From Halichondria panicea (taxonomy: Eukaryota > Porifera > Demospongiae > Suberitida > Halichondriidae): a DNA stretch of 64,000 nt. The position numbers and the translations under genes are program-made. Positions within the stretch are counted from its first letter, which is position 1. Each line of letters begins with the position of its first letter. Positions 1 through 41,104 of the stretch are shown here, in pieces. The stretch covers positions 434,001-498,000 of the forward strand of contig NC_087383.1 in NCBI RefSeq assembly GCF_963675165.1, written 5' to 3'. The notes below the pieces were generated by a model. That model made no database searches, had not been told where the DNA came from, and saw only the letters and a list, made by a program, of their open reading frames with translations.

Positions 1-257
1 ATATCTTGGAAATAGATCAAAAGAGAATTCGGGATTATTATTTGCACAATTTCCTTGAGCTCGTCTACAGTAAGTTTTTCAATTATAGATTTAAATTTAG
101 ATATTAGAATGTCAAACTTGCGCTGAATATCCCTTGTATCGTTGTTAGCTTCACTGGTATTGAGAGGGTAATTTATGTATCTAGCTTCATAGCAGCTACT
201 CCATGGATTAGTAGCTAGTCTAGATGCACTACTATCTTCTGCTTGTTTTACTTCCAT
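1..257 (-). CDS. Family A gene A1, 5' part, runs off the window
   Basis: An open frame starts at an ATG whose complement is at 255-257 and continues without a stop to base 1, giving 85 codons. I do not recognise it from a named family. Residues about 41-50 (DTRDIQRKFD) match the motif KTRDLQAKFD in A4 and QTRNLQSDFD in A2, followed by a helix-rich stretch, so this is a divergent member of the same small-protein family. It faces gene B1, whose first exon starts at 540, across a 282-bp gap, which repeats the head-to-head layout of the other pairs. The C-terminal half lies outside the window. Function is unknown. Confidence 0.55.
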   Translation of the reverse strand, partial: MEVKQAEDSSASRLATNPWSSCYEARYINYPLNTSEANNDTRDIQRKFDILISKFKSIIEKLTVDELKEIVQIIIPNSLLIYFQD

Positions 258-539
258 TTTTAAGGCTATGACCTACACAAAGAGAAGAAGCTTAAAGGTC
301 ACATGCATGCAATTGCTTAATTGAGGATATTCATAAGAAAACATGATCCACCCCATGTACATCTCATGGGACTACCATATTTATGTGCTGATGTTGTACT
401 ATGCATAACAGGATAACACCTGCTTGATGTGTGGGGATGAATATTGTTAACCTTTGTGTATTGGTAGTTATTTTGGCCTGCATATGGTATAGCTACTGCA
501 TTATTGGGATAAGCCGCTTGGCCTAGAGATCAGTTGGAG
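258..539. promoter_or_regulatory. Intergenic gap between A1 and B1 (putative bidirectional promoter)
   Basis: This 282-bp spacer lies between the start codons of A1 (-) and B1 (+). The head-to-head layout implies a shared promoter region. I see no clear core motif in it. This is inference from layout only. Confidence 0.35.
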
Positions 540-1362
540 ATGGGGAATGTAAATTCGGGATCAACAACTCTGCACCAAAAGGTTTGTTATCAGGGTTTGT
601 CGATATAATTATATAGTTAATGTTGTTTTCTCTGTATAGCAGCTAGATGGCATACAGCTAGATGGCATACTGCTAGACGATGAGCTCTCGATCGCTACAA
701 AGTGCATTCAAGATCGTCATTCTCAGTTGATAAAAAAGCTTCTGTGTTCACTTTTCGAACACCTCGACTCGATTCACACAGCCCAGGAATTTCTGCTTTC
801 CCAACCGATGCATTCTTTGATAACTCACAAAGAGCGTACACACATTGTACATGCTCAGTCTTCTCAAGAATTGCTGGAAGTTTGCTCTGGAAAGTTCAGG
901 TGGTACGATAGCATGGCACTGGAGGAGCTATTTGAGTTCATTCAAAGAAATGAATTAGAAATGAAGATGAAGCATCTAAAAGATGAAATTCTTCTGGTGG
1001 TTCGCCAGTTTTTTGAGGAACATGGTCGAATCATCAAGGATCCCTCGAGTGGTTGCACTATAGTTATGGTGGACTCTTACTTAAGACAGAGTGATTCTGA
1101 TGAGTGTATGATGTACAAGCTCTACCATTTGGCATCAGGTGCCTTAGCCCTGAAGAATGATAGTGCGCTACAACTTCAAGACACACAGCTCAAGAAAGAT
1201 TTGACACCACCAAATGATTCCTGCATTGGTAATGATCATGTTGGAAAGCTGCCGACGAGAATCCAGCACAAGACAAGTCTGACCAAGAGTAGGCGTTCTG
1301 ATAGGAGTTCGACAGGAGACTCACTCTCAGATGTTGATATTGACGAACTAACCTCTACATAA
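540..1362 (+). CDS. Family B gene B1 (two exons, 253 aa)
   Basis: Proposed exons are 540-581 and 643-1362, with a GT donor and an AG acceptor; together they give 254 codons including the stop. The first exon encodes 14 residues beginning MGNVNSG, which fits an N-myristoylation pattern (Gly2, Ser6). The main exon begins with a short repeat (LDGIQLDGILLDD). It then shares the family B layout: a helical region, a KFRWYDSMALEEL block, a QFFEEHGRIIKDPSS block, then a beta-strand-like IVMVD. Compare KFQWFNSTL and EYFNGTGRLIIDPS in B2. The C-terminus is Ser/Arg-rich and lacks the VSQAE ending of B2 and B4. Function is unknown. The first exon is less certain than the second. Confidence 0.55.
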
Positions 1363-1496
1363 TTCCATTACATGATTGTATAATACTTTCTATATGCTGG
1401 GTGTCCAACTGTATATGTATATATGTGTGTCATAAACGATATGAAAATATGTATCAAGCAAATTGTGCAATTATAACATTCAGCATGAAAAATAAA

Positions 1497-1800
1497 ATCG
1501 TAGAGTCCACAAGACACACCACACAGAGAGAACACACACACACAACCGGTCACATCCACTTGTTCAGTGAACTTGTCCTGACAAGCCATGTGTATCCTCT
1601 CACAGGTGGCAGGGCTGTCCAGTCGATAGTAGCCACTCACTTCACTTTCTGCCCGTGCAGCTGTGACGAGTGTGATGGCCTCCCTCATGCATGCAGGGCA
1701 GCCCCGCCATCTGTGAAAGGATACGCATGGCTCCCCTCCAGATATACACACTGCTCCAGGGTCACCAGACCAAGGCCCTGCATGTGTAAACACTCCCTCT
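1497..1800 (-). pseudogene. XDH 3'-end fragment F1, rearranged
   Basis: Antisense sequence closely matches the last exons of the two full XDH genes. A remnant of exon 25 lies near 1500-1520, exon 24 at about 1556-1690 and part of exon 23 at about 1735-1800. Between them, about 1690-1735, is a piece of exon 24 in the opposite orientation (ATACGCATGG on the plus strand, against CCATGCGTAT in the normal copies). Splice sites and frame are lost. It is a broken duplicate, not a gene. Confidence 0.8.
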
Positions 1801-2033
1801 ATTCCAGGCAGAGGGGGGTAGAACTACATTAAAACAGTCATATACATTACTAACACGGCCTTTCTATTACTCTATTGTACTTCGTAAAGATGATACTATC
1901 ACTTACTGTATACTATTCTAAGCATGCAAAATAAACTGTGATGTGCTTTGCAGTACATCACACTCGGTGATTTTGCTTTTGCCTGACAATTTAATGAAGC
2001 ACTATAAGCATGCACAATAAAAGACTGTGTTCC

Positions 2034-2560
2034 TCCTTTCCCTGCAGTAGCCATGGCTCCATAGCTCGAAATGGCAGTATAGGGCTCAAGAAAGGCCACA
2101 AGGTCACCAAGACCCGGAGACGAGGGGGGTGAGTAATGTTAGCGAGGATTACTGTAAACAGGTTTAATCATGGTAAACCATTGTTTGGCACTAACAGTGT
2201 ATGTTTTGATAAGAAATTTGGAATTTCACGTTTTGTTTTATTGTATGTACTATTAATATAATTATGTCCGTTCTTTCCGTTGCATGCAGTTTCTGAGAAA
2301 ACGTGTTGTGGGTGAGGTGTGTGGTCAGGTTTCCTATAAGAAAAGGTTGATTGAGCTGCTCAAAGTGCAAATACTCAGCACTCATGTTTGCCAAGAAAAG
2401 GCTGAGGGGTGTGGTCTTTGTTAATAGTTTTCTGTGCTCCTGATAACTCCCCCACATACACACATATACACAGTCAGGAAGTCACTGTAGAGGCAACAAA
2501 ACGAGAGGAAATGCAGAAGTTACCATAAGAAAAGCTCCGGCTGCTTCCTTAATAGTATGT
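2034..2560 (+). pseudogene. Ribosomal protein L36 (eL36) pseudogene fragment, three exon remnants
   Basis: A remnant at about 2060-2132 encodes GLKKGHKVTKTRRRG before a GTGAGT donor, matching the N-terminal part of eL36. The next, from about 2291, reads VVGEVCG..SYKKRLIELLKV and then, after a frame slip, SALMFAKKRL, matching the middle of the protein. The last, from about 2478, reads CRGNKTREEMQKL and then a stop, matching the C-terminal HxRAKRKREEL region. Frame slips and stops make it non-functional. Its retained intron-exon order shows that it came from a DNA-level duplication rather than a retrocopy. A second copy of the last exon is at 9085-9180. Confidence 0.75.
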
Positions 2561-2749
2561 TATGATTTCAAATTTATCATAGAATGGGTTTGTTCGATTT
2601 TTGGCATAATAAACTATTTAATCAATTCAGCATTTCAAGTTAAAACATAGAGACCTTTACTTGCTAAACTAATGTGTTTTTGCTCATTGAGGAGGCTAGC
2701 TAGATATATTCGAATATCTATGATAAAATATAAAATACAAAATCTTTGG

Positions 2750-3421
2750 TTAGGAAACTGTAATAACTAGCCAGGGTTCGTGATAATCACCTACGACACT
2801 CCCACTTTTACCAAGAATGGACACAATCTTGCGGCACGTTTTGTTGCAATTTTCTCCTTCCAAAACAGACAGATCCCAGTTCCTATCCACGTTTATTATG
2901 TATGTTTCTCTTGAACTGTGATTGTTGTCCGCTGTTAATAGTTTGACACGCTCTTTAAAATAATGCTTTAATTTTACATCGTATTCAGTAAGCTCAGCTT
3001 TACATTCGCTAATGTCATCTTGTTCGAGTTGATCTAGCAAAAACTTCAACACATCATAGTGAAACCATGAGATGGGAAGGGTTATCCTCAGAAACAGATT
3101 GTCTATAGTATGAGCCTTTTTGAATACTTTGGAGTATGCATGAGGTATTTTTTTCAGGGCCTTTTTCACGTCTGAAAAGCAATAACGATTCTTGATCCGT
3201 TCTACCAGATCATCAAAATCTGACTGAAGGTTCCTTGTTTGCTTTCCTAAAGCTTGCCTCTCTAAAAACTGTGGGACATGAATATGAATGGCTGCCAGAT
3301 GTTTTTCTTTTTCCAGAACGATATTTTTCAGAATGATATTACGTTCTGTCTCTTGAATCTCTTTGGACGGGGTTGCGGAAACTACGACAATAGTATCATG
3401 TAGTATAGAACTCTCAGACAT
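2750..3421 (-). CDS. Family A gene A2 (223 aa, single exon)
   Basis: An uninterrupted frame starts at an ATG (complement 3419-3421). I do not recognise a named family. Visible layout: a variable N-terminus (1-60); QTRNLQSDFDDLVERI (61-76), probably coiled; a helical block with PISWFHYDVLKFLLDQL (116-132) and YDVKLKHYFKERVKLL (147-162); then a probable beta strand YIINVDRNWD (174-183) and a short alpha/beta end containing two Cys (192, 196). No signal peptide or membrane segment is visible, so a cytosolic protein is likely. The helical-plus-strand layout reminds me of an uncharacterised domain seen in sponge predicted proteins beside ankyrin or NACHT modules; that is from memory and unverified. 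It is head-to-head with B2. Confidence 0.7.
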   Translation of the reverse strand: MSESSILHDTIVVVSATPSKEIQETERNIILKNIVLEKEKHLAAIHIHVPQFLERQALGKQTRNLQSDFDDLVERIKNRYCFSDVKKALKKIPHAYSKVFKKAHTIDNLFLRITLPISWFHYDVLKFLLDQLEQDDISECKAELTEYDVKLKHYFKERVKLLTADNNHSSRETYIINVDRNWDLSVLEGENCNKTCRKIVSILGKSGSVVGDYHEPWLVITVS

Positions 3422-3800
3422 AGTGTTAACTCTCTAACTAGTACAACTTGTTACTATACTGCAGCAAACTTGTTTATTATATAACGGTGTGTTAACACAC
3501 TAGCCTGGGTAAGCACCATGAAATATGATCACATAGATAATTATTGTGTTGACTGAACGGCCTGACACACAGGTGGTCCCTAATGTATTTCTATGTATTC
3601 TTTGTTATATCCAAATAAGGATGGATAACTCATAACACTGGCGCCTGGGGTCTGCATCCTAATTAAACGTCATTGATAAGCTATAAATAATTAGCTATGC
3701 TTGCAAAATAACACTGCCCTAACTGGAAAAACCTGTTCTTACCTTGAGATTGACTGATCTAGCTAGAGTCTATGCTTGATTGACTGTTTGTCTGGATTGG
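3422..3800. promoter_or_regulatory. Intergenic gap between A2 and B2 (putative bidirectional promoter)
   Basis: This is a 379-bp spacer between divergent starts. It contains AAACGTCATT at 3665-3674, a half-match to a cAMP-response element (TGACGTCA). A full CRE-type palindrome occurs in the equivalent spacer of A4/B4. Regulation is inference. Confidence 0.35.
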
Positions 3801-4677
3801 ATGGCAATGATAAACACTGATCGTGATTGCCAGCAAACCCTGCCTCTCCCCCCAGAGGCTATAAAGGTGACAGTAATAATAGTGTGTTTGATTAGAGTAT
3901 ATATATATGGTGTATATAGTAAGTTAGTAGGTTACACATAATGCATGTATTAATTTGTGGTTGTATTTACTATTCAACATAATTATACAGTTAGCGGACG
4001 AGGGGCTGTCAAGCTTAACTAAGCAGGTTGAAAAAAAGTTCAAGGAGGATTTGATGGACATTACGTGCCTACTTTTGCTCCCAACCTATATTCCTGAATT
4101 CAAGAGGTTTCTCCTCTCCCAAACGATGCGACATTGCGTTTCCGAAGAAGAGCGTTTGCTAATACCTAAGGCCAGTCGCAAGGAACTTCAAGAAATGTTC
4201 GTAAATAAATTCCAATGGTTTAATTCCACATTATTTGATGTACTACCCAAGTATGTACCTGAGAGGATAAAAGATGTTGTTATGCCCAAGTTAGCTGCAA
4301 TACAAAAAATTGTGGATGAGTACTTCAATGGAACGGGAAGACTGATAATAGATCCATCACAAATTCTTATTGTCTTTGATTCGGCTTATGAGGATATTCC
4401 AGCCTCTCAATTTGATGATCTGTATAAGATAGCTCTAGAAGCAACGGGGTTCGAATGTGATGTTGGCCACTGCGACGTTGCTGAAGCTATGATTATTAGG
4501 ATGAAAATGTACGATAAACCCATACAGGAGTCTCTACAAGATAGCGATTACGAAGAGGAACTGTGCCCACTGGGACGAGGGCATAGGATGAAACGTAAAC
4601 TGAATAATAGGAAGACGGTTACTGATACCTCAAGCTACACGGACACAATGCACTTTGTGTCCCAAGCCGAACCATAA
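3801..4677 (+). CDS. Family B gene B2 (two exons, 250 aa)
   Basis: Proposed exons are 3801-3866 (22 codons, donor GTGACA) and 3991-4677. The intron is in phase 0, as in B4, whose donor has the same GTGACA sequence; this supports the structure. The protein has a helical N-terminal half, then KFQWFNSTLFDVLPKYVPE, then VDEYFNGTGRLIIDPS, then a strand ILIVFDSAYED and a helix. The block W-F-x(n)-Y-F followed by a strand ending in Asp parallels SWFHYDVL..YFKERV..IINVDRNWD in family A. The C-terminus is basic (MKRKLNNRK) and ends in HFVSQAEP. The first 300 bases of 3' flank match those after B4, showing that the whole unit was duplicated. Function is unknown. Confidence 0.65.
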
Positions 4678-4980
4678 AAAATGTCTGTTATAGGTTTTTC
4701 CTCACATTTGCATGCATGGAGGTTTTTTCCTTGCTTTATCTCATAAAGCAAAATTATGTGTGTATCTATAATGCTCAATAGTCATGTATATTATCCTATA
4801 GAGTTATAATTATACAAGCTTTACTTTATATAGTTATGTTCAAAAAGAACACGCCATATAATTTGATGATTTGTTGTAATTAAGCTTTACTTTAAGTTCG
4901 GTTAAAGAAGGGCCGCTATATATAATTTGATATTATTAAAATTGAATAAGCTACATTCAGCATGAAACTCTCTAACATAG
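4678..4980. other. 3' flank of B2, shared with B4
   Basis: The first stretch (about 4690-4760) is nearly the same as the B4 flank at about 11480-11550; both contain CACATTTGCATGCATGGAGG. The rest is A+T-rich with no gene visible. Confidence 0.6.
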
Positions 4981-5380
4981 TGTGAAGGGTATACTTCTAT
5001 CAATGTCTATAATTTATATAGCTATATGCTTCAACAGTCCATCTCTTTGCAGCAGGGTCCACAACAACACACACCTGCATAATTATAGAGAGTACATGTA
5101 CATTCACTGTAAAGTAAAGCCAGCACATGCACACACTATACCCAGAGCTCTCACCTTGGATGAGAAGATAGCCTTGGGGTTGGGCGCCCTGTCTAACAGA
5201 CTAACATTGAACACCACAGGTATATCAGACACAGAGGGTATCTTGTAGGTCCCCGGTCCAGTGGTGAAGGTGGTCCCTCGCTGGGTCCTCTGGTTCCCCT
5301 CCAGATACACACACTGCTCCATGCAGGGTCAATACCAAGGCCCTGCATGTGTGAACGCTCCCTTTATACATGCATGCATG
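4981..5380 (-). pseudogene. XDH 3'-end fragment F2 (exons 25 and 23)
   Basis: Exon 25 (about 5026-5084) and exon 23 (about 5153-5380) of XDH are present in antisense; exon 24 is missing between them. The start of exon 23 carries small insertions and deletions (CTCCATGCAGGGTCAATACC against CTCCAGGGTCACCAGACC in the intact genes). Part of the normal 3' flank also remains. It is non-functional. Confidence 0.8.
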
Positions 5381-5791
5381 GGGAAGAGGAGGGTAGAACT
5401 ACATTAAAACAGTCATGCAGATGTACATTGACTATAAACAGTTACACAGCATTTCTATATTGTACTGTGTAAAGTTAATAGTAACTCTCTTACTGCAGAT
5501 ATATAACTTTACATTTCGTTTGTGCAATTTCTCTTTCACTGTAAAAAAAATTGTCTTTTACATAATAAGCTATTTGATTACCAGTATATGAGGGACTGAA
5601 TCTAAATTAGTAGTTAGTTAATGTACTACAAAAAAGAGTTAACTATTTTTATAGAAATTTAAGTTATGTAGTTCTTGTAGCAGAACACTAGCATGTTACT
5701 CTACAACATAACTAAATGTAGCAGAATACTAGCATAAAATGTAGCAGAACACTAGCATGCTACTCTAGATCTACAACATAACTAATGTTTG
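5381..5791. repeat. Intergenic stretch with a short tandem motif
   Basis: It contains three imperfect copies of GTAGCAGAACACTAGCATG at about 5680-5765, and A+T-rich DNA resembling the flank of the eL36 remnants. No gene is visible. Confidence 0.45.
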
Positions 5792-6521
5792 TCATGACGA
5801 AATTCTAATGTACAGATAAGGTTTGTGTAGAGACCCGGAGACTCGACCTTCCTTTTTTAGGACCGCAGCAATTTGCTTGCAAGTTGTCGTGCAATCGCTG
5901 CCTTGTAGGGCTTCACTATCCCAAGCGTCATCTGTTCTCACGAGAAGCATTTCCTCGTGCTTGACTGTCGGCAGTTGTTTCACTCTGTAGGTAAAATAGG
6001 TTTGTAACTCTTCTACGTACGCTTTTACGCGTACAGGTATGTCTACAGCTTTTTCTAACAATACATCACTAAGATGTGTGAGCAGGTTGCTCTGGTACCA
6101 AGTAGAGTACACACGAATCCAATCGAAAGCATTCGTAATGTCTGTCGCTCGAGCTAAATCCTCTTTAAATTCCTGTGACATGGTGACGTCTTTGCATGCA
6201 TAAAGTATTACAACATCAACCGGTGTGCCTAGTTTTTTTATTTCCTGTTCGATCATCGATAGCAGTTCATCGTATCTTCCTAGCAATCGTTTAGTGAAGT
6301 ACATATCAAAACAGTTAACAAACAGAAACACAATTTCATCTTTGTCCAAGTTATCATTTGCATCTTTGTCCGAGCTATATTTATCAATCACACGTACATC
6401 TTTTAACAGCAACTCTATTATAGGGGAAGAAGTAAAAATAGTGATAACAAACTGAATAATGTTCACCTTCTCTTTTGACAGTAGAAACAGAATAAACACG
6501 TTTTAAAAAGGTTGGACTCAT
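5792..6521 (-). CDS. Family A gene A3 (two exons, 225 aa)
   Basis: Proposed exons in transcript order are 6521-6467 and 6414-5792, with a phase-1 intron; total 226 codons including the stop. The decayed relative A5 keeps the same first-exon ending (VSTVKR) and the same donor position, which supports this intron. The protein is clearly related to A2 and A4 at its C-terminus: TDDAWDSEALQGSDCTTTC aligns with VDRNWDLSVLEGENCNKTC, and YFTYRVKQLP with YFKERVKLL. Its N-terminal half differs (a long charged helical stretch with DKDEIVFLFVNCFDMYF). Function is unknown. It is head-to-head with C1, not with a B gene. Confidence 0.6.
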
Positions 6522-6976
6522 GATATACACTCTCTATGTAAGATATAGTTGGATACTTTTAAATACTGGTAGAAACGCCCAATTTGTGCTGATAAATCAA
6601 CCTCTTGAGGATATTCACAATCTGTACAACTATTTGCTATAGTAGTTGAGGTCGCTATATGCCATTCATTGAGGATAAACCCTCGGATAAATAAACAACT
6701 CAAACAGATTCACCATGAACAACTATTCGCTAATACCATTTATGGAGGATAAAGTCTTGAATAAATATACACTGAATTACGTTCACACCTTACACCTGAT
6801 CTGTGATTATGACAATGGTTACCATGAAAATTTTGTGACGTAGTACCGACCTAAATTCTTTGATCTGCAACTATACACATCCCATATACTTAATGTTCAG
6901 TTACAACTTAAACTACTTCATCTCTACAACTAGTTTTGCATTGGCCACTATACTGAACTTGAAGAACCTTATAATC
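6522..6976. promoter_or_regulatory. Intergenic gap between A3 and C1 (putative bidirectional promoter)
   Basis: A 455-bp spacer. A block near 6818-6843, GGTTACCATGAAAA followed by TGTGACGTAGTA, recurs almost unchanged before C2 (about 16238-16267). It includes TGACGTAG, a CRE-like site at 6836-6843. Conservation between two copies hints at function but could simply reflect common descent. Confidence 0.4.
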
Positions 6977-7779
6977 ATGGCTGATACTCAATTCAGCTCA
7001 ACTGATTTGGATTGCCACAGAAAGACAGGTAATTTTCTAGACAGTTTACCTTCCTTGCATATACTATGTCATTGCTATCTTGCATTTAATTTGCAAACAT
7101 GCAGTATATATGTTTTTTATGTTCACCTATTAATGCAGGAAGCGACTTGGATTCCCTAAAAAGTCTCAGTATTGAACTGATTCAGAAGGGTCTACTTGAT
7201 AATGAACCAGCTAAAGAAAAGGCTCTCTCCCAAGAGTTCCGTGATGTGTTTAAAAAGAAAGAGCGAAAGATTGTGCTGGCAGCAGCAGCTAATAAATCTC
7301 TCTCTGATGGCTTTTTGAAGATAGTTAAAGGATACGATATTGTTCTACCATTGGTTCAGTTTCTTAAATTTCTAAGGATATGCCTTGGCAGTTCAAATAT
7401 TCTGGAAAGTAACCGGATTGACGAGATTTTGCTAAGATTTGATTCGGCAACCCCTGATTGTTCATTGAGTAACGTGAAACGAATGCAATTATCCACAGCA
7501 ACCGATTTTAAACCGACAGAAGTTGTCACAACGTCTAAATTGGATATCACGGCAAATACTTTTATTGATTCTTCCCAAAGCACTGATTCATCATCTCGAT
7601 CTATCTATTCGAGGAGTAGTGATTCTTTTCAAGTATCCTCTCAGCTCAATGCAGAAAAACTGCTTCCATCTAACAATGAGTTAGTTTGTAGTACATCATC
7701 GATGCCTTCTCTGGGCGAAAAAGACGAGCTAGTCGTTGGCATCGCTTTACCTATTTTTACAACGATGCTCAAATGCTGA
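6977..7779 (+). CDS. Family C gene C1 (two exons, 230 aa)
   Basis: Exons are 6977-7028 and 7139-7779 with a phase-1 intron; 231 codons including the stop. C2 has the same exon lengths and phase. I do not recognise the family. Residues about 18-110 are helical and include ERKIVLAAAANKSLSDGF and a hydrophobic VLPLVQFLKFLRI. Residues about 125-215 are rich in Ser and Thr (for example SSQSTDSSSRSIYSRSSDSF) and look unstructured. The end is hydrophobic (VVGIALPIFTTMLKC). Similarity to the A/B domain is not evident. It stands head-to-head with A3. Function is unknown. Confidence 0.6.
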
Positions 7780-8149
7780 GCGTCAACAACACAATGCATA
7801 TACTGTACACAAGTGCCGAGTGGTGTCCTGCTGCATGAGCTAGTACCATCATCTTTGTTGGATACTGTCTAGCTGTCATTTTACATTTTGCGCACAATAA
7901 TTGTTGTTTGATTGTTCAAGCTTCTTTTTTTTGTTATAGTACGTAGTTTGATGCTTTTTTCAAGCTTGTTAATTTAGTTCAAGCTTGTAAATCAAGCTGC
8001 TTTAGTTCAGTATGATATTATCACCAAAGGTATATTTTTTGCCACCTATATAATTAAATTATGCACACCCCCGGCTTTTTTTTAATATGGCCACGATTAC
8101 TTTATTAATTTTTTATAATTATACAAGTAGAAAAATGATTGTTTATCAA
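7780..8149. other. 3' flank of C1
   Basis: The first part (TGTACACAAGTGCCGAGTGG, about 7804-7823) is shared with the flank of C2 at about 17285. The remainder is A+T-rich; no gene is seen. Confidence 0.5.
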
Positions 8150-8955
8150 CATGAAACTCTCTAAAATAGTGTCTACAAAAGTAAGGGTCATGTCCAATGT
8201 CTATGATACAGCTATGATACAATGTCTATTAGCTATGCTTCAACTGTCCATCTCTTTGCAGCAGGGTCCACAACAACACACACCAGCATAATTATAGGGA
8301 GAGTATGTAATATAACGAGACCACCACCCTCAGCACACACACCTGCTGAACGAACTTGTCCTGACAGGCCATGCGTATCCTCTCACAGGTGGCGGGGCTG
8401 TCCAGTCGATAGTAGCCACTCACTCCACTCTCTGCTCGTGCAGCTGTGATGGCCTCCCTCAGGGCAAATAACACACTGGCTGCCAGGAACAGTGGCGGCT
8501 CACCAACAGCCTGGAGGGTAGGGGGGTGGGGGCATGTTAGCAGAGCAGGGAGAGTATTATAATAATTATGACAAAACTCTATGAATAAATGAATACACAG
8601 GATCAAGAGTTCCTGACAGTATAATTATGTACATGCAGTACAAGGTGTGTACAAATGTGCTGTTTACAGTAACCACCCACTCAATCAATTACTCATAAGC
8701 ACACATGTGCTGCTTCACTTCTATAAGAGCTTCCCCCCTCACCTTGGATGAGAAGATAGCCTTGGGGTTGGGCGCCCTGTCTAACAGACTAACAAATATT
8801 GAACACCACGGGTACATCAGACACAGAGGGTATCTTGTAGGTCCCCGGTTCAGTGGTGAAGGTAGTCCCTCGCTGGGTCCTCCAGATACACACACTACTC
8901 CAGGGTCACCAGACCAAGGCCCTGCGTGGACGCTCCCTCCACCTGGGGGAGGGGA
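8150..8955 (-). pseudogene. XDH 3'-end fragment F3 (exons 25, 24, 23)
   Basis: Exons 25 (about 8232-8282), 24 (about 8348-8515) and 23 (about 8742-8945) are in normal order and antisense, with the XDH 3' flank. Exon 23 has a 4-base insertion (ACAAATATTGAAC against ACATTGAAC) and a deletion of about 11 bases, so the frame is broken. Exon 24 remains open. Confidence 0.85.
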
Positions 8956-9084
8956 GGAGATGGGGGGGAGTAAAAAATATATATCAACTCTATCGTATAC
9001 TGCTAATTAGTTGTGCTGTTGTTTGTGCTCCTGAACTTTTAAACGTAATTGACACCCTTTACTTCACACACACACACACACACA

Positions 9085-9180
9085 CAGTTGGGAGGTCACC
9101 GTAGAGGCAAGAAGAAGCGAGAGGAGATGTAGAAGTTGCTGCAAGCCATGAGAAAAGCACAGCAAACTTTAATAGTATGT
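9085..9180 (+). pseudogene. eL36 last-exon fragment
   Basis: After an AG acceptor the frame reads GGHRRGKKKREEM, then a TAG stop, then KLLQAMRKAQQTL and the normal end. It matches the eL36 C-terminus (HxRAKRKREEL...AAMRKA). The in-frame TAG replaces an expected Gln codon. An (AC)n tract sits directly before it. The first two exons are absent. Confidence 0.75.
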
Positions 9181-9521
9181 TATATTTCGTTTGCAAATTT
9201 CTCTTATATACATGATAAACTATGATCCATATATCAGGTTTAATGCACAAGGCTTAGCGAATGACACTGTACAAGCTTGATTCCGTTTCTATTGCAAATT
9301 GCATGCGCATGCTCACTCTTTGCGATTGTGAATTATGCGAAAAAATTCCCAATTCACAATAGCAAAACCCCGATATGCGATAATACACAATTATAAGTCA
9401 CACTCATTGCTAATGAACAAAAATGTTCTACTCCATGTATACATGTTCTTCTAGCTATATGTAATGTATTATATGCAGCTAAAACATAGTTTCATAAAAT
9501 AATAAAACATAAGAAACCTTT

Positions 9522-10175
9522 TCAGGAAACTGTAATAACTAGCCAGGGTTCGTGGTAATCACCTACGACACGCCCACTTTTCCCACTTTTCCCAAGAATG
9601 GACGCAATCTTATGGCACGTTTTGTTGCAATTTTCCCCCTCCAAAACGGACGGATCCCAGTTCCTGTCCACGTTCATTATGTATTTTGTTCCCCTTGAAC
9701 TGTGATTGTTGTCCACTGGTATTGTACCTATTGTTGTACCTACCTCCGTTAACGGTTTGACACGCTCTTCAAAATATTGTTTTAATTTTACATCGTATTC
9801 GACAAGCTCAGTTTTGCATTCGCTAATGTCATCTTGTTTGAGTTGATCTAGCAAAAACTTCAACACATCGTAGTGAAACCATGAGATGGGAAGGGTTATC
9901 CTCAGAAACAGATCGTCTATAGTGTGAGCCTTTTTGAATACTTTGGAGTATGCATGAGGTATTTGCCTCAGAGCTTTCTTCAAGTCCGAAATACTAACAT
10001 GTTTCTTGAACATTCTCATTAGCTCATCAAACTTTGCCTGTAGGTCTCTTGTTTTCTTTGCCATACCTTGCCTCTCATGAAGATCAACCAATGGTATATT
10101 TTGTAGTGCTGCCATTTTAGCCATTGTATATAGAGCTGCATGAGATAGCGCATGCACGAGCTTGCTATCACACAT
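9522..10175 (-). CDS. Family A gene A4 (217 aa, single exon)
   Basis: An uninterrupted frame closely related to A2 over its last 165 residues, including KTRDLQAKFDELM (41-53), PISWFHYDVLKFLLDQL, YDVKLKQYFEERVKPL and a VDRNWDPSVLEGENC end. The N-terminal 35 residues are unrelated to A2, so the two genes may have acquired different starts. Two small insertions (around VGTTIGTIPV and GKSGKSG) distinguish it. Function is unknown. It is head-to-head with B4. Confidence 0.7.
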   Translation of the reverse strand: MCDSKLVHALSHAALYTMAKMAALQNIPLVDLHERQGMAKKTRDLQAKFDELMRMFKKHVSISDLKKALRQIPHAYSKVFKKAHTIDDLFLRITLPISWFHYDVLKFLLDQLKQDDISECKTELVEYDVKLKQYFEERVKPLTEVGTTIGTIPVDNNHSSRGTKYIMNVDRNWDPSVLEGENCNKTCHKIASILGKSGKSGRVVGDYHEPWLVITVS

Positions 10176-10565
10176 TTAATGAATAATTATAGCTAGACCA
10201 TGAAATACCATTCACACATAAAATGTGCTGAGTCACTTTGTAGTACAATGGCTACACATAAAATCGAAGTGCAGGTGTCCTTAATTGTATTCATTATTGA
10301 CCAAACATAGGCTCTGGATAACGAACCTTGACGCTCTTTGACGTCATCATGATTATAAGGAAACATCGAGAAGCTCGAGAAGTAACACATGATGGCTATG
10401 AATAATTATATGCATATACATATACGTACGTTACTGTGCCGTCTATATAGCTTGCTTACCCTGATGCTTAGTTTGAGTGAGGACTAACTCTAGCTAGCAT
10501 CTGGCTCTCATTGCGTTTGTTATATGTCTATGTGGGCATACTATTATCGAAATTAGAACATTGCA
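10176..10565. promoter_or_regulatory. Intergenic gap between A4 and B4 with a perfect CRE palindrome
   Basis: A 390-bp spacer between divergent starts. It contains TGACGTCA at 10339-10346, the consensus binding site for CREB/ATF-type bZIP proteins, about 170 bp from the A4 start and 220 bp from the B4 start. That the site is used is inference. Confidence 0.45.
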
Positions 10566-11470
10566 ATGGATACCAATAACGACTCCATGTATACTCCAGG
10601 GGCTAAGCAGGTGACACTATATAGTGTGTGTTTTAATGTGACACGGTGTTAGACTATGTGATATAATAATATTATTATGGTACACTTATAACACTCTTTT
10701 TATTAATACAGATAGAGGTTGAAAACAAAAGGCTGGCCAGCTCAACTGAACGGGTGAAAAAAAATTTCAAACAACATTTGATGGATATTCTGTGTCTGAT
10801 TATGCTTCAAGACCTTCCTGCAATAAAAAGCTTTCTTCTGGCAAACACAGTCCGGCATCGGATTCCTCCCAAACAACAATCTCGGATCCCAAAAGCTGAT
10901 TATAAGGAATTGCAGCAAATTGCTTCGAAGGCGTTTGAATCGTTTTTTAGTCCAGTATTCCTCGATGAAGTACCCCACCACCTACCCGATAAGATTAACA
11001 ACAAGGATATCCTGTCAAAATTAGCTGATATGAGAACCATGGTCCAAGATTACTTCAATGGGACGGGAAGAGTGATTATTGATCGAACAAAGAAGAAAAT
11101 TGTTATCGTCTTTGATTCATCGTACATGTACGATAATATTCCAGACCGTCAATTAGAAGAATTGTATACGACAGCTCTAGCAGCAACGGGTGAGATTTAT
11201 GACACGAATATGACAGTTGGCCATTGCGACATTAGAACAGCTCTCATTATGAGACGAAGCTTGTTTGAAAGGCCGATTGAGGAATCACTAGGAGAAAACG
11301 ATGACATGGAAGAGCTGGTAACAATGGGACGAGGCAGTGGGAGGAAAAGACGAAAATTTAATAACACCACGAATACTTATATAGGCTCCGAATCTGGCTA
11401 CACAATGAACTTTGTGTCTCAAGCCGAAGCCGAAGCCGAAGCCGAAGCCGAAGCTGAAATCGTAGTCTAA
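10566..11470 (+). CDS. Family B gene B4 (two exons, 267 aa)
   Basis: Exons are 10566-10610 (15 codons, donor GTGACA) and 10712-11470, phase 0, 268 codons in total. The layout matches B2: QDYFNGTGRVIIDR, a strand IVIVFDSSYMYDNIP, then HCDIRTALIMRR (B2: HCDVAEAMIIRM), a basic GRGSGRKRRKFNN that could act as a nuclear localisation signal, and YTMNFVSQAE. After this, B4 adds a (GCCGAA)n-type tract coding for repeated Ala-Glu (AEAEAEAEAEAE) before the end; B2 stops after QAEP. Function is unknown. Confidence 0.65.
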
Positions 11471-11674
11471 GAATTTTATGTTGGGTTTTTCCTCACATTT
11501 GCATGCATGGAGGTTTTTTCCCTGCTTTATGTTGAGCCTCATAAAGCAAAATGTTCTGTATAATGCTAATTTGTGATGGCTATAGTCTAGATTAGTTGTA
11601 TATCATGCAGAAGCTCCGGCTGATTGATATTAGTTTGTGTATGCAATGACCCGAAAAATTTAATCAAAATATGA
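11471..11674. other. 3' flank of B4
   Basis: Shares the B2 flank sequence around 11485-11550. No gene is seen. Confidence 0.5.
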
Positions 11675-11914
11675 AAAACTCTCTAAAATAGTGTCTACAA
11701 AAGTAAGGGTCATGTCCAATGTCTATATAATACAGCTATGATACAATGTCTATTAGCTATGCTTCAACTGTCCATCTCTTTGCAGCAGGGTCCACAACAA
11801 CACACACCTAAATAATTATAGGGAGAGTATGTAATATTGAACAAGACCACCCCCCCCCACACCTACACACCTGTTGAGTGAACTTGTTCTGACAGGCCAT
11901 GCGTATCCTCTCAC
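11675..11914 (-). pseudogene. XDH 3'-end fragment F4, cut inside exon 24
   Basis: Contains XDH 3' flank, exon 25 (about 11762-11812) and the last part of exon 24 (about 11872-11914). The match stops at CGTATCCTCTCAC, where intact copies continue with AGGTGGCGGGG. The next base begins methyltransferase-like sequence on the other strand. This is a clean junction. Confidence 0.8.
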
Positions 11915-12757
11915 TATAAAGATAAATTCGAAGGTAATCAGTATCTATCACAGTACTACAACATACCGGGAACTCCGCAGAACTATTATCGTGATGTTCG
12001 ATTGAAACTTGTACACGATATGTTCAAGAAACTTTTACCGGATGAGGAAGTTGAAGGAAAAGATGATTTTAGGGTGCTTGATTATGGTTCTGGACCAGTG
12101 ATTGCGTACGTGATCAGTGCCGCTGGTAAAAGAAAAGTGTCTGAGATTGTGCTTGCAGAGTACACTGAAAAGAATCGAGACGCTTTAAACAAGTGGCAAG
12201 CAAACGATTCATCATCATTCAATTGGCTGCCCTACATTAAGAATGTTGTTCAAGACATCGAAAAAAAGCCGGAAAGTGAGGTTCGTATACGTGAGCAAAG
12301 ATTACGCGATCTTATGAAAGTGGTGTCGTGTGACATAAAAGCTGAGCAACCAATTGAAAAAGGATCTGAAGGCCCATTTGATGTCGTAATTACGTTCCTT
12401 GCAATTGAGTGTGCTTGCGTGAGTGAAGCTGAATACATTGAGTTTATAGAAAAACTATCAAAGATGGTAAAACCAAATGGTGCCATCATAATGTTTTCGA
12501 AATTGGCAAAAAAAGCACAATCGATTAGCTATGCAATTGGGAGAGAGAGGTTCTACTACTACGCAGTGACGTATGACATGCTTTTAAACGCACTCAGCAA
12601 GGCTGGATTCGTTAATGTGCAGTGTACCAATGTGCCCATAATGGAAGCTATATCACAGCTGACACCTTCTGAAATTGCTCAGCTTGAGGCCAACCCTTGT
12701 GAAAATGAGGAGTTCTATTACATGTCTATTACTGCTGATAAAATAGTATCTACTTGA
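11915..12757 (+). pseudogene. NNMT/PNMT/TEMT-family amine N-methyltransferase, 5'-truncated
   Basis: An open frame from the junction at 11915 reads KDKFEGNQYLSQYY and continues to a stop at 12757. The first in-frame ATG is at 12020. It matches the S-adenosylmethionine-dependent N-methyltransferase family that includes nicotinamide and phenylethanolamine N-methyltransferases. The SAM-binding motif I (VLDYGSGPVIAYV) is present, followed by VLAEYTEKNRDALNKW, a DVVITFLAIECA segment and a KPNGAIIMF strand. Conserved sequence continues upstream of the first ATG up to the XDH junction, so the true N-terminus (about 20-30 residues) appears lost, unless an upstream exon joins it. The body has no stops, so it could be recent or still transcribed. 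No partner gene is visible nearby. Confidence 0.65.
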
Positions 12758-13140
12758 AAAAACAAGTTAGCTTCTTAATACTGCAAACTAGTGTCTCATC
12801 TTGTGAATTGGGCGTAGATGTGTATATGTTATTCTCTTGAAGCTTTTGGGCTATAATTGTGTGAAATGAATTTTGTCATTAAACTCCCGCCTATAATTTT
12901 ATCATTTACACTTAACATGCATTGCATTGCATGCTACAAAAGTTGCAATAAATAAATCCACTAAAATTTTATTACCCCACTTGTAGGCGCCTGTGCTAAG
13001 TGGGCGGTGGAATTTACTGGAAAAGTACAGTAATATCTAAAAATAGATTGTAGGCGTGTCTGATTTTGTGTAAAGTACATGTAGCAGATAGCTATAAATA
13101 GATCAAATAAAGTTTTTGCTAGCACGTTGGACTAATAGTG

Positions 13141-13199
13141 AGTTGCATGCCCTATTCTCTCATACGCCCTTGGTATGAGAGAAGAGGGCATGCAACAAC
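13141..13199. repeat. Near-perfect hairpin with GAGGGCATGCAAC ends
   Basis: The left arm GTTGCATGCCCT..CTCTCATAC pairs with the right arm GTATGAGAG..AGGGCATGCAAC. The end sequence matches the terminal inverted repeats of the 0.6-kb element at 38065-38665, so this may be a minimal, deleted relative. Confidence 0.6.
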
Positions 13200-13576
13200 T
13201 TGCGAGCAAAAACTGTAAGTGGGCCCTTTTACATAATAGGCACTGTGAAAATAGCTTGAGTTGTACACCCAGTATAGCTCAGAACACGCCAACATTTTAC
13301 ATGGCAGTAAATCTAATTTTTATGATTGTTAGTCCAATCAATGTTAATTGAAACCACATTAATTTTTTTTTGTGCTACTTAAGTTTGTTATTTCGCTGCT
13401 GAAATTAAAAAAGTAATGCCCATTTTTTGGTGCTATATAATTTATACAGTATAGGTGTTTTATTTCGCTGCTGTGTATGTGAATAATCGGTGTCATCAAT
13501 TTGCGAAAATCAATGAATAATTGGTGAAAAATTTGCACAGGCCTATACCCACTTGGTATGTCATCATGCACTATAG

Positions 13577-13663
13577 CCTCAGTCCCAGGCCAAATTTTTT
13601 TTTAATATATAATGAGGAGAAATTTATCCCTTCTGTCTTTAGAGAATAATTGGCCTGGGACCG
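13577..13663. repeat. Inverted repeat, GTCCCAGGCCAA arms
   Basis: GTCCCAGGCCAA on the left and TTGGCCTGGGAC on the right enclose about 60 A+T-rich bases. It is probably a small non-autonomous element. Confidence 0.5.
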
Positions 13664-14062
13664 GTCCGAGTGTATATATTCCGTCGTATAATTCGCAAAA
13701 AGACATTGTCGATTTTTTGCAAGCTTGCATTATTGTTAAGCCCCCTATATACATGCATGACTATAGTCAATCATAAAGGTGTATATGTTTAGCGAACAGG
13801 GCACACGCGCGTACCACGTGCATGTGTGTCCGCAATACATACTAAGTATAGGGGTTCCCCAGCAATAGGTTTTGCATGGGCACTTTTAATATCTCATCTG
13901 TAAAGTTTAAAGGTCACGAACTACCGAGTACGAACTATTATCTGCGAAGTAGCAACTGCATGCCAACTACCAATTATAGCAACGTACTGCGAACTAGCAA
14001 CTGAAGCGTGCTATATATGCGACATTTTAGCATGCAAAGTGCACTTCCATGCAGTTGTCATG

Positions 14063-14186
14063 TTACACAGTAAAAACACAATAAAACATGTTAAATGAAA
14101 CGCATCTTTTGAAATTTCTGTCATTTTACAAAATACGATGATGCATCTCATATATATAACATAGTTATGTGTTTTTACTGTGTATC
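14063..14186. mobile_element. MITE-like element with ACACAGTAAAAACACA arms
   Basis: ACACAGTAAAAACACA at about 14066 and its exact reverse complement TGTGTTTTTACTGTGT near 14170 enclose about 90 A+T-rich bases. No coding capacity. Confidence 0.6.
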
Positions 14187-15879
14187 AAGTATAAACTAGT
14201 ATTATAGCACTCGTGCAGGGTACAATAGAGATCACTCGAGGTCAATATCAAGCTTACCTATAATTATGACAATGTGTAATATGATCTTGATTTTTGTAAT
14301 TGATACTATTACAGCTAGATCTGTATGACCTCATGTTCTGTATGACCTCATGTAAATGCCACAGGCACTTTTAACAGTCTGACACCATTACCAAGGGTGT
14401 ACAAAACATATCTTCTCTTCCCTTTATACGCCCTTGATAATACTAAATCCTTATTATAGTTGCTTGAGAAGCTAATTCAAAAGCTAAATCTATACTGCTA
14501 TATAGATTCATTGTCACCACTTCAACCATATAGCTCAATAGACCTATATAACCTAGACAGAGGGTATATAATAATTATAAGTGGTTAAATCTTGTAATTG
14601 TGCACAGAATTAATAGTGGGATGTGCCAAGAAAGAAGTATAATAGTAACTGTATATAAATGCTCGCGGTCATGATTGTATTATACCCACGACTTCAATCA
14701 TGCATATACTGCAAAAGGCTGCTACAGTGTAGACTTTTTTGTTAATCCAGCCACCCTTGGGACAGTGCAGCTTGACCAGAATAGCGAGGTGGCTGCATGT
14801 CAGAAATATCTGCAGCTAAAAAACGACCCTACCTCGCATCTAATGACTAATTTTGCGGTGCAGTCTCAATCGTTATGCTTAGCCTCGATCCCAGGCCGCA
14901 CTAACTATCATCAGCAGGTAGATCACATTCACATTCACATTCAGGGAAGTGGGAAGGGGAGGCTATACATTGTGTGCTCTCTATACATTTAACCAATTTT
15001 ATCTGCCAAACCACATCCAAAACGTCATAAACCTGGTTTGGGGCAGCCCAGGGCAAGTTTATGCAGTAAACATCTGCTAACAATCTGTTCCAAACCAAAT
15101 GGCTGGTGTATCGAAGTGGCCGTACTTCAGACAGCGGGAATAGCAAGAGACTACCGCAAAACTTAAATCCATGAAAACCTCTCTAACGATCTTTCCGCGA
15201 AAGTTTATACCCTCGAAATATACCTGCTATAAGGTATACTAATAGGTGCTCTAATAAATGAATATCTTGCGGCTTTGTTTATGTGCATGCAGTGTATAGG
15301 TCAAAGGTCATGCATAACGGATAAGCTAACACTTTCTGAAATTGCTAAACTTGGGGTTAAAGTCGATCTTATATAAAGGCTTGCAATGACGTGACATTCT
15401 GAGATTGAGTTCCTTCAGTGCTCCTGTTTACAACATTTTTCATTAAGACTTAATTATTATAATTATGTGTGCTAGATCTGCATTTGTGAGGTTGATAACA
15501 GGCTGACATGCATCAATAACAAATCTTGGTAAGCTCAAAAATGAGATTTATACACTACTCTTTGTCACATGTGGCCTAGTGGGGAAACATTCTTGTACTG
15601 TTACCCTTTTTACAGGTTTTATAATTGTCATAATTATCTGTCACCAGGAAGTTACCAAAGCCATATAAATACCAACCGCATGCATGGTTGCTTTTATATG
15701 GGCGTAGCTGCACTAGCAGTATAGGTCTACTATAGAGATTAGTGGAGTCAATTCAACAGCTAGCGTTGGTCTACTCTCTGCTGCTAGCATTTATTTAACT
15801 GGCTCAGTACTGAAGAAAGACAGAAGGTAAGTCATTGGTTGTCTAGAGCTATAGTGGGGACTATTTTTTACATATTTTG

Positions 15880-16059
15880 TACATATCAAGACAGTTAACA
15901 AACAGAAACACAATTTCATCTTTGTCCGAGTTATTTGTACCTCGGAGCAGCAACTCTATATAATTATATTAGATTTAGTTAGACAAATTGAATAGTAGAG
16001 TCTTACTCACCTTTTCTTTTGACAGTAGAAACAGGGAAAAAAGACACTCTTATATACAT
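15880..16059 (-). pseudogene. Family A remnant A5 (5' part only)
   Basis: The first exon (16059-16011) ends PVSTVKRK before a GTGAGT donor. A second exon begins at 15955 with ELLLRG..NSDKDEIVFLFVNC, matching A3 (ELLLKD..DKDEIVFLFVNC), and meets a stop after about 35 codons. The rest of the gene is gone. It faces C2 just as A3 faces C1, so the pair was duplicated as a unit and then the A member decayed. Confidence 0.7.
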
Positions 16060-16414
16060 GATACTCTTCTCTGTGTAAGAAAGAATACTGGTATAAATGC
16101 CCGGCGCCCACTGACAACTTAACTACATGTATTTGCTGGAGGTATGTACATGTGTACGTATGTAGCTAAAGGTCGCTATTATGGATAATTACGATAGGGG
16201 ATAAAATAAACACTGAATCACGTTCACACTGACAACGGTTACCATGAAAACTGTTGTGACGTAGTAGTTTCCGAGGTAGTTTTCTACTCTTATTATTAAT
16301 TTTTACTACAATTAATTGATTTTATACTGGCACATTAGCTACTATTAAAGTTGCAGCTTCATCCCAAAAGTAATTTGCATTGGCTACCACTGAACCTGAA
16401 GAACCTTATTTAAT
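16060..16414. promoter_or_regulatory. Intergenic gap between A5 remnant and C2
   Basis: A 355-bp spacer. It keeps the GGTTACCATGAAAA..TGTGACGTAGTAG block shared with the A3/C1 spacer, including TGACGTAG at 16257-16264. Confidence 0.4.
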
Positions 16415-17257
16415 ATGGCAGTTGATACTCATTTAAGCTCAACTGAGGGTTGCCACAGTGAGACAGGTAAGTATTATTAAAATAATTCTAGACAGTTTCA
16501 GTATCTTCCTAATACAAAATTTATATATACTATGTCTCATTGCTATCTTATATAATGTTTATGAGTGTGTTCACTATTAAATTAGTAATGTTTATGTGTG
16601 TTCACTTGTTTTAATGCAGAAAGCCAACTAGTTGTCCTTAAAAGTCTCAGTATTGAACTGATTCAGCAGGGTCCAATCGATAATGAACGAGCTAAAGATA
16701 AGGCTCTCTCCCAAGAGTTCCGTCATGTGTTTGGCATAAAAGAACGCAAGATCGTGCTGGCAGCAGCAGCTAATAAATCTCTCTCTGATGGCTTCTTGAA
16801 GATAGTTAAAGGATACGATTTTGTTCCACCTTTGATTGAGTTTCTCAAATTTCTAAAGATATTCTTTGACGATTTTAATATTCTGGAAAGTATTAACCAG
16901 ATTGACAAGATTTTTCAAAGGTTTGATCTAGTCCCAGAGTATTCATTAAATAATATGAAACAAATCACTACATGTACTGATTTTGATTTTAAACAGACAG
17001 AAGTTGTCACGACGCCTAAATTGGATATCACGGCAAATATTGTTGATTCTTCCCAAATCACTGATTTGTCGTCTCTGTCTATCTATTCGAGGAGTAGTGA
17101 TTCTTTTCAAGTATCCTCTCAGCTCAATGCACCCATATTGCTTCCATCTAACAGCGAGTTAGTTTGTACTACATCATTGATACCTCATCTGGGAGAAAAA
17201 GACGAGTTGGTCGTTGGCATCGCTTTACCTATTTTTACACCGATGCTCAACCGCTGA
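16415..17257 (+). CDS. Family C gene C2 (two exons, 229 aa)
   Basis: Exons are 16415-16466 (52 nt, the same length as in C1) and 16620-17257, phase-1 intron, 230 codons. It is collinear with C1: SLSIELIQQG, ALSQEFRHVF, ERKIVLAAAANKSLSDGF, then a Ser/Thr-rich region (SIYSRSSDSFQVSSQLNA) and a hydrophobic end VVGIALPIFTPMLNR. The strong C1/C2 match, with open frames in both although the A5 partner has decayed, suggests that the C product does not require its A neighbour, or that the decay is recent. Function is unknown. Confidence 0.6.
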
Positions 17258-17639: not shown

Positions 17640-18846
17640 CAAGAAAAAAAATTAATATGAAACTCTCTAAAATAGTGTCAATAAAAGTAAGGGTCATGTC
17701 TCTACTTTTTAATGTCTATGCTTCAATAGTCCATTTATTTGCAGCAGAGTCCACAACAACACACACCTGCAGCACAGAGAAAGAGGGGAGTGTGTAATAT
17801 TAAATGCATTATAAGACCACCCCCTCCCCCCCCCCGAGAAAGGGAGTAAGCAATATTGAACAAGGCCACCTCCACACACCTGTTGAGTGAACTTGTCCTG
17901 ACAGGCCATGCGTATCCTCTCACAGGTGGCGGGGCTGTCCAGTCGATAGTAGCCACTCACTCCACTCTCTGCTCGTGCAGCTGTAATAGCCTCCCTCAGG
18001 GCAAATAACACACTGGCTGCCAGGAACAGTGGCGGCTCACCAACAGCCTGGAGGGTAGGGGGGTAGGGCATGTTAGCAGAGCAGGGAGAGTATTATAATA
18101 ATTATGACAAAACTCTATGGATAAATGGATAAAAGTATCAAGTTCCTGACAGTATAATTATGTACATGCGGCACAATGAGATGAACTGTGTACACATGTG
18201 CTGCTGTTTACTAAACACCCACTCAATCAATTACTTATAAGCACACATGTGCTGCTTCACTTCTATAAGAGCTTCCCCCTCACCTTGGATGAGAAGATAG
18301 CCTTGGGGTTGGGTGCCCTGTCTAACAGACTAACATTGAACACCACAGGTACATCAGACACAGAGGGTATCTTGTAGGTCCCCGGTCCAGTGGTGAAGGT
18401 AGTCCCTCGCTGGGTCCTCTGGTTCCCCTCCAGATACACACACTGCTCCAGGGTCACCAGACCAAGGCCCTGCGTGAACGCTCCCTCCACCTGGGGGAAG
18501 GAAGAGGGTAGCTAGAAATACATTTTAGTCATGTGTAGTGTCCTAATGAACTCTTGGTACTGTACATTATAATAATAAGTGATTTTTGCTCAACTCTATT
18601 GTACTGCCAATTAATAAAGTACTAGGACTTTAGCGTGCACAATGAATGCACTATGGTACATGTACACCATGCATATGTACCTGCCCGATATCAATGGCAG
18701 GGTTGATGCTGTCCCCCACGTCCATGACAATGTCAGTCCTCAACACAGTGAAGTCTCCAGTCAGAGTGTCCGGAGAAGTCTTGCCCGTAGCCAGCATTGG
18801 AGTACAGCTGGAGGTCAAGAGAGGTCAATCTCCCGGCAGAGGTGAA
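17640..18846 (-). pseudogene. XDH 3'-end fragment F5 (exons 25, 24, 23, part of 22 joined to 18)
   Basis: Exons 25 (about 17718-17767), 24 (about 17880-18050), 23 (about 18285-18491) and the end of 22 (about 18681-18770) are in order and nearly identical to the intact genes. At about 18771 exon 22 jumps directly into exon 18 sequence (CTTGCCCGTAGCCAGCATTG, about 18780-18840). Exons 19-21 and the intervening introns are therefore deleted. Exons 23 and 24 are still open, so the copy is young, but it lacks the 5' two thirds of the gene. Confidence 0.85.

Positions 18847-32017: not shown

Positions 32018-41104
<9,087 letters not shown>

Follow-up and report, generated by a model that had tools for sequence, protein, structure and literature searches.

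What kind of system is formed by small, fast-diverging genes that face one another in a tandem series of pairs? This question is raised by positions 1 to 17,257 of a 64,000-nucleotide stretch of the sponge Halichondria panicea (contig NC_087383.1, positions 434,001 to 498,000; C7:434001-498000 of the 131-Mb genome in 39 contigs), hereafter the window, to which all coordinates refer unless they carry a contig prefix. From left to right, the array consists of A1, B1, A2, B2, A3, C1, A4, B4, an A5 remnant, and C2, with the A genes on the minus strand and the B and C genes on the plus strand. The initial annotation took all three families to be unrecognised, which does not hold for A: it is a relative of the TRADD-N expansion described in sponges in the passages used here of Kaur et al. 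2021 (PMC8195603). We consider it moderately probable that the genes of this cluster descend from the TRADD-N-type immune/apoptotic adaptor family of this animal, that they form a tandem expansion specific to its lineage, and that their small, domain-only products act as adaptors or decoys.

This answer rests primarily on the homology of A to a large family of modules, each combining a helical domain with an RRM-like, TRADD-N-type domain, which is present at more than 100 other places of the genome, with many copies in tandem arrays. The starting query was a consensus of a poriferan/cnidarian receptor module, which gave 151 genomic matches at E<=10, at least 124 of them at E<0.001 among the matches listed (best 4e-28); the profile was later rebuilt from genome sequences, first with 10 members after removal of near-duplicates and then with 20 more, all 20 of which had matched the first profile. 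In profile-profile comparisons, A matches this 30-member family with P 4.2e-13, with 0 of 200 column shuffles being as good, and with P 1.3e-14 under other settings; reversed A gave P 0.089, the best of six reversed tests 0.065, and the best of 25 unrelated open frames 0.066. An hmmsearch with the 30-member profile against 3,201 sequences (9 proteins of the array, 2,700 shuffles, and 492 open frames of the region) likewise ranks the four A proteins first (A4 2.2e-10, A2 4.2e-6, A3 7.1e-4, and A1 0.0098), the best of the 2,700 shuffles reaching 0.14. The four A proteins, placed in a tree with 29 members of the module family, fall in one long-branched group (100/98), the position of which is unsure.

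The large family in turn fits the TRADD-N type of sponges. Kaur et al. 2021 (PMC8195603) count 357 TRADD-N proteins in Amphimedon, mostly with one or more Death-like domains, then TRADD-N, then a variable C-terminus, and they present the uS motif at the turn between strands β2 and β3 as a hallmark. In the Halichondria family this turn reads [GS][SC] in 28 of 30 members, one exception being a truncated row. When the C-terminal segment of each of 21 members was compared with Pfam at E<=10, PF20694 (TRADD-like_N) was the most frequent match (5 of 21, best E 0.0043, none at the curated cut-off); PF13820 (NCOA6_TRADD-N) matched a single member (E 0.14), as did each of five further models. Genome-wide, PF20694 gave eight weak matches (E 0.044 to 0.89), every one of them on or within 300 bp of a module-family place. 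Linkage to signalling domains was seen in one examined member for each domain: a Death domain in L067 (23.5 bits vs a cut-off of 22.6), a NACHT in the same open frame as the module in L047, an LRR in the same open frame in L051, and, for L026, a kinase in the next open frame, which may belong to the same gene; the remaining scanned members and neighbouring frames gave no domain above cut-off. On contig C8 (6715132-6756348), 15 same-strand copies of the module stand about 3 kb apart, and further open frames lie beside several of the copies examined.

Set against the complete module, A is cut short. Its alignment covers the helical part and β1-α1-β2-β3, and the stop codons of the four copies fall at nearly one alignment position; it thus ends before α2-β4 and, judging from the alignment and a medium-confidence model of A4, is without every downstream sensor or effector domain. 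That AlphaFold model, built with three window sequences (mean predicted local distance difference test score [pLDDT] 69, predicted template modelling score [pTM] 0.65), has a helical bundle at residues 32-138, followed by a strand (163-168), a helix (180-193), and two strands (203-208 and 211-216), an E-H-E-E order. At the β2-β3 turn, GD is found in A1, A2, and A4 and GS in A3 alone, and the uS/uC motif is accordingly lost in three of the four. Because the complete fold and the uS motif, two defining features of TRADD-N, are both wanting, A is best called a truncated, degenerate TRADD-N relative and not a bona fide TRADD-N protein. The helical part occupies the position described for Death-like domains; we do not claim it as a Death or DED domain.

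The affinities of B are harder to read. Profile-profile comparison relates B to the module family with P 7.7e-5 (0 of 200 shuffles; P 3.1e-4 under other settings), to A with P 1.5e-4 (0 of 200 shuffles), and to the module family plus A with P 2.3e-5 (0 of 100 shuffles). The model of B contains a helical bundle, two strands, a helix, one strand, and more helices. Together these give weak to moderate support for B as a protein of similar helical-then-alpha/beta order that is followed by a low-confidence, partly basic tail. We do not claim that C is a diverged B (profile-profile P 0.036, 3 of 100 shuffles as good).

Several results weigh against a TRADD-N derivation of the cluster. Pfam scans of A, B, and C gave no match near cut-off; a Foldseek search of the A4 model against the PDB yielded no significant match (best E 0.021, prob 0.23), and PDB profile searches with the A alignment and with the TRADD-N-like segment retrieved no TRADD-N structure and no meaningful relative. 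Since Foldseek is without a significant match, the fold claim for A rests on sequence and predicted element order. As for the large family, the best genomic match of PF20694 (20.7 bits, E 0.044) lies below the 23.7 cut-off, a control with this model also produced a sub-cut-off match in one archaeon, and PF13820 had no genome-wide match, but the control genomes gave none either. The signal of B is lost once the family is split (B2+B4, P 0.013, 1 of 200 shuffles as good; B1, P 0.035, 3 of 200), and neither B nor C is among the best 22 rows of the 3,201 sequences in the hmmsearch with the 30-member profile; once A is included in that profile, B1 scores E 0.15, about equal to the best shuffle (0.14). 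The B model is also poor (mean pLDDT 54), with a strand order broadly like that of A and no closer. Finally, C shows no relation to the module family (P 0.34, equalled or bettered by 105 of 200 shuffles).

Beyond the array, the reach of these families was followed by single-protein searches of the genome, covering A1, A4, B1, B2, B4, C2, and exon 2 of A3. Close copies of A4, B4, and C2 are found at this locus alone (E limits 0.001, 0.01, and 0.01, respectively). A1, B2, and B1, searched to E 10, gave chance-level matches outside the cluster: for A1 at E 0.34 (with internal stops) and E 2.7 (an open frame that by eye resembles a membrane protein), and for B1 at E 2. Exon 2 of A3 leads back to the large family: it has 16 outside-cluster matches at E<=10, the nine best of which (1.7e-4 to 0.22) all lie on places of that family, as do 11 of the 16 overall (5 of 16 lie elsewhere), and some of the places on contig C5 are near-identical copies. 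A tblastn search of A4 against phages gave no match.

The array itself comprises four intact head-to-head pairs and one pair whose A member is a 47-codon remnant, as read from the DNA; of the five units first proposed, the fifth is therefore incomplete. The intact proteins, rebuilt from their exons, match the DNA; the frames are open and the introns, where present, are GT-AG. The features are as follows.

1..257, minus strand: 5' part of A1 (whole gene C7:433622-434257, 212 aa, single exon, extending past the window start)
540..1362, plus strand: B1 (exons 540-581 and 640-1362, phase-0 intron, 254 aa)
2750..3421, minus strand: A2 (single exon, 223 aa)
3801..4677, plus strand: B2 (exons 3801-3866 and 3991-4677, 250 aa)
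5792..6521, minus strand: A3 (exons 6521-6467 and 6414-5792, phase-1 intron, 225 aa)
6977..7779, plus strand: C1 (exons 6977-7028 and 7139-7779, phase-1 intron, 230 aa)
9522..10175, minus strand: A4 (single exon, 217 aa)
10566..11470, plus strand: B4 (exons 10566-10610 and 10712-11470, 267 aa)
about 15861..16059, minus strand: A5, a pseudogene remnant (A3-like and truncated, with 47 codons, counted by hand, before a stop)
16415..17257, plus strand: C2 (exons 16415-16466 and 16620-17257, 229 aa)
258-539, 3422-3800, 6522-6976, 10176-10565, and 16060-16414: ATG-to-ATG spacers of 282, 379, 455, 390, and 355 bp

These spacers agree with the 280-460 bp proposed initially, as do all the protein lengths given then (A2, A3, A4, B2, B4, C1, and C2) apart from that of B1, which is 254 and not 253 residues. 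The claim that exon lengths and intron phases agree within each family stands for the phases of B, where all introns are of phase 0 (exon 1 measures 42, 66, and 45 nt in B1, B2, and B4), and for C, where both introns are of phase 1 and exon 1 is 52 nt in both genes; it fails for A, in which A3 and the A5 remnant have one phase-1 intron and A1, A2, and A4 have none. In the tail of B4 (11425-11460), an Ala-Glu repeat encoded by a GCCGAA-type DNA repeat, absent from B2, marks recent repeat growth in the coding sequence.

How, then, did the facing pairs multiply? A self-comparison of positions -3000 to 21000 uncovered duplication footprints of the two flanking genes, one encoding RPL36 and the other carrying MoCoBD_2, which we take to be xanthine dehydrogenase (XDH).

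1557..1841, minus strand: XDH-type 3'-end remnant 1
2026..2521, plus strand: RPL36 remnant 1
5003..5416, minus strand: XDH-type 3'-end remnant 2
8154..8950, minus strand: XDH-type 3'-end remnant 3, frame broken
9079..9205, plus strand: RPL36 last-exon remnant 2, with an in-frame stop
11676..11914, minus strand: XDH-type 3'-end remnant 4
17877..18487, minus strand: XDH-type 3' exons in open frame (Pfam MoCoBD_2 on 18281-18487, one of the two exons)

RPL36 itself lies upstream of the array in three open pieces, the first two of which match Pfam Ribosomal_L36e, and the open exons at 17877-18487 are the apparent source of the XDH-type remnants. Because broken pieces of both genes, four XDH-type 3' ends and two of RPL36, have been left between the pairs, the comparison establishes that an ancestral block of RPL36, A(minus)-B(plus), and the XDH 3' end was multiplied in tandem to yield the array. 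RPL36 pieces were seen ahead of A2 and A4 and none ahead of A3 or A5. The two members of a pair seem to have been duplicated jointly, A2/A4 with B2/B4 and A3/A5 with C1/C2. However, B2/B4 look older, with a synonymous divergence (dS) of 1.1 to 1.8 vs 0.34-0.41 for A2/A4; gene conversion between A2 and A4 is one possible reason. Two more XDH-type 3' ends in open frame, at 32141-32742 and 41624-42230, make it likely that a tandem family of xanthine-dehydrogenase-like genes adjoins the array. Abutting the fourth XDH-type remnant is an open frame at 11927-12757 for an NNMT/PNMT/TEMT-type methyltransferase (Pfam E 2.2e-40); its residues 1-243 match C5:3374911-3375639 at 100% identity, as if a copy had recently been transferred from one chromosome to another.

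The head-to-head layout had been offered as a sign of a distinct system. We reject this, because the layout is a by-product of segmental duplication and nothing unusual in a sponge genome: in Amphimedon, according to the passages used here of PMC4773876, the head-to-head arrangement applies to 45% of genes, and 11,379 genes have start sites that lie less than 1 kb apart. A facing pair is thus ordinary in a sponge, and the duplications account for its multiplication. The spacers do hold common motifs: GGATAA is found in all five (p 4.5e-5 against a 104-kb regional background; 0 of 300 random sets with an equally good motif) and TGACGT in four. These motifs, possibly GATA/CRE-like control elements, are no more than a hint of common control, given that the spacers are partly paralogous.

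The initial view of multicopy, fast-diverging small proteins is borne out. The paralogues A4/A2 (E 2.5e-81), B4/B2 (E 1.9e-52), and C2/C1 (E 5.3e-85) match beyond chance. In A2/A4 the anticipated combination of a diverged N-terminus and a conserved core is evident from divergence by segment. The first 41 residues differ strongly (nonsynonymous divergence [dN] 0.71, dS 1.09), residues 82-121 are nearly unchanged (dN 0.02, dS 0.14), and over residues 82-215 dN is 0.02-0.10 vs dS of 0.14-0.31, a pattern that fits fast-changing ends on a kept core. The dN/dS ratio is 0.45-0.56 for A2/A4, 0.23-0.38 for B2/B4, and 0.74-0.82 for C1/C2, so that a ratio near 1, which the initial annotation had set against its own reading, is nearly reached by C, which could be under relaxed selection, and A and B stay below it.

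Homology would place A, perhaps with B, in an intracellular adaptor network linking sensors to effectors. A and B would be made together from the common spacer and would act as adaptors or decoys that tune larger receptors: the A module could bind either its counterpart in the large receptors or B, and so raise or block receptor assembly. With the docking part alone, A could bridge or block the assembly of these receptors, much as CARD-only and pyrin-only proteins regulate inflammasomes. The N-terminus would change fast because it has to keep up with changing partners or escape inhibitors. The defence-type role suggested at the outset, which we too infer, is backed for A by its homology to a module fused to NACHT, LRR, or Death in single examined members.

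Among the rivals of the adaptor or decoy reading, the one that survives best, though we hold it unlikely, is decay, with truncated genes of TRADD-N type that became trapped in an unstable RPL36-XDH duplication and drift without selected function. The reduction of A5 to a remnant, the broken state of the RPL36 and XDH pieces, the ratio for C1/C2, and the part of the TRADD-N fold missing from A would all be expected of decay. Yet full open frames and GT-AG introns persist in nine genes (four of A, three of B, and two of C), whose identity to the first row of the respective family is 22-72%, and both the A2/A4 core at residues 82-215 and B2/B4 have changed less at nonsynonymous than at synonymous sites. 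An improbable second reading is a self/non-self or individual-recognition locus, in which the products of A and B or C form allele-specific heteromers and diversity is kept within the species; it would account for the apparent co-duplication of pair members and for the diverged N-terminus on a conserved core of A2/A4, but facing genes at short distance are common in a sponge genome, and inspection by eye, with no predictor run, reveals no membrane or extracellular part. We give still less credence to nuclear or transcriptional adaptors, with the basic tail of B as a nuclear signal: TRADD-N proteins include the transcription coactivator NCOA6 and the nucleolar protein DEDD2 (PMC8195603), and basic clusters are found in B4 (RKRRK) and B2 (MKRK), but the basic stretch of B1 is weaker and such clusters are weak evidence. 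It would be a long shot to view A and the facing B or C as the halves of a single switch, in which A is a TRADD-N domain that has been split and receives its missing α2-β4 in trans from the pair-mate or a receptor; the array would then provide orthogonal two-gene regulators for sponge NACHT/LRR-type receptors, each pair diversifying on its own. A transposon origin has no support: in line with the initial expectation, Pfam scans of A, B, and C retrieved no transposase, reverse transcriptase, or capsid family, and searches with A1, A4, B1, B2, B4, and C2 found no dispersed close copies, the distant module family reached via A3 being the one exception.

In the parts of the literature on TRADD-N, sponge tandem TRADD-N, and sponge NLRs covered here, no stand-alone truncated TRADD-N pairs were found, and the supplementary tables of Kaur et al. 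may list such proteins. The sponge expansion is described there through multidomain proteins (PMC8195603). Truncated domain-only members maintained as tandem pairs would suggest that the TRADD-N system of an early-branching animal has dedicated regulators. The locus is compact and encodes few small proteins, offering a way to ask what the sponge TRADD-N arsenal does. More generally, paralogues in the same genome can connect a known module with fast-evolving genes that at first go unrecognised.

Comparison with known systems puts these proteins in perspective. The CARD-only and pyrin-only proteins of vertebrates likewise consist of a single signalling domain akin to one found in large receptors, but their fold is different, and regulation by A is our proposal. 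With the sponge TRADD-N expansion, in particular its NCOA6 clade (Kaur et al. 2021, PMC8195603), A shares a helical domain followed by an RRM-like β-α-β-β unit and a large lineage-specific expansion, with relatives in this genome that carry Death, NACHT, or LRR; unlike the proteins of that expansion, A stops before α2-β4, has no C-terminal variable domain, is missing the uS/uC pair in three of four copies, and stands in head-to-head pairs with B or C. With sponge NLRs, as known from the repertoire of Dysidea avara (PMC12909245), the likeness is that one NACHT gene examined in this genome (L047) has the same N-terminal module; Pfam scans of A, B, and C show no NACHT and no LRR. Finally, the bidirectional gene pairs of compact sponge genomes (PMC4773876) are similarly head-to-head genes less than 1 kb apart, but here the whole pair has been multiplied, and its partners may share a module.

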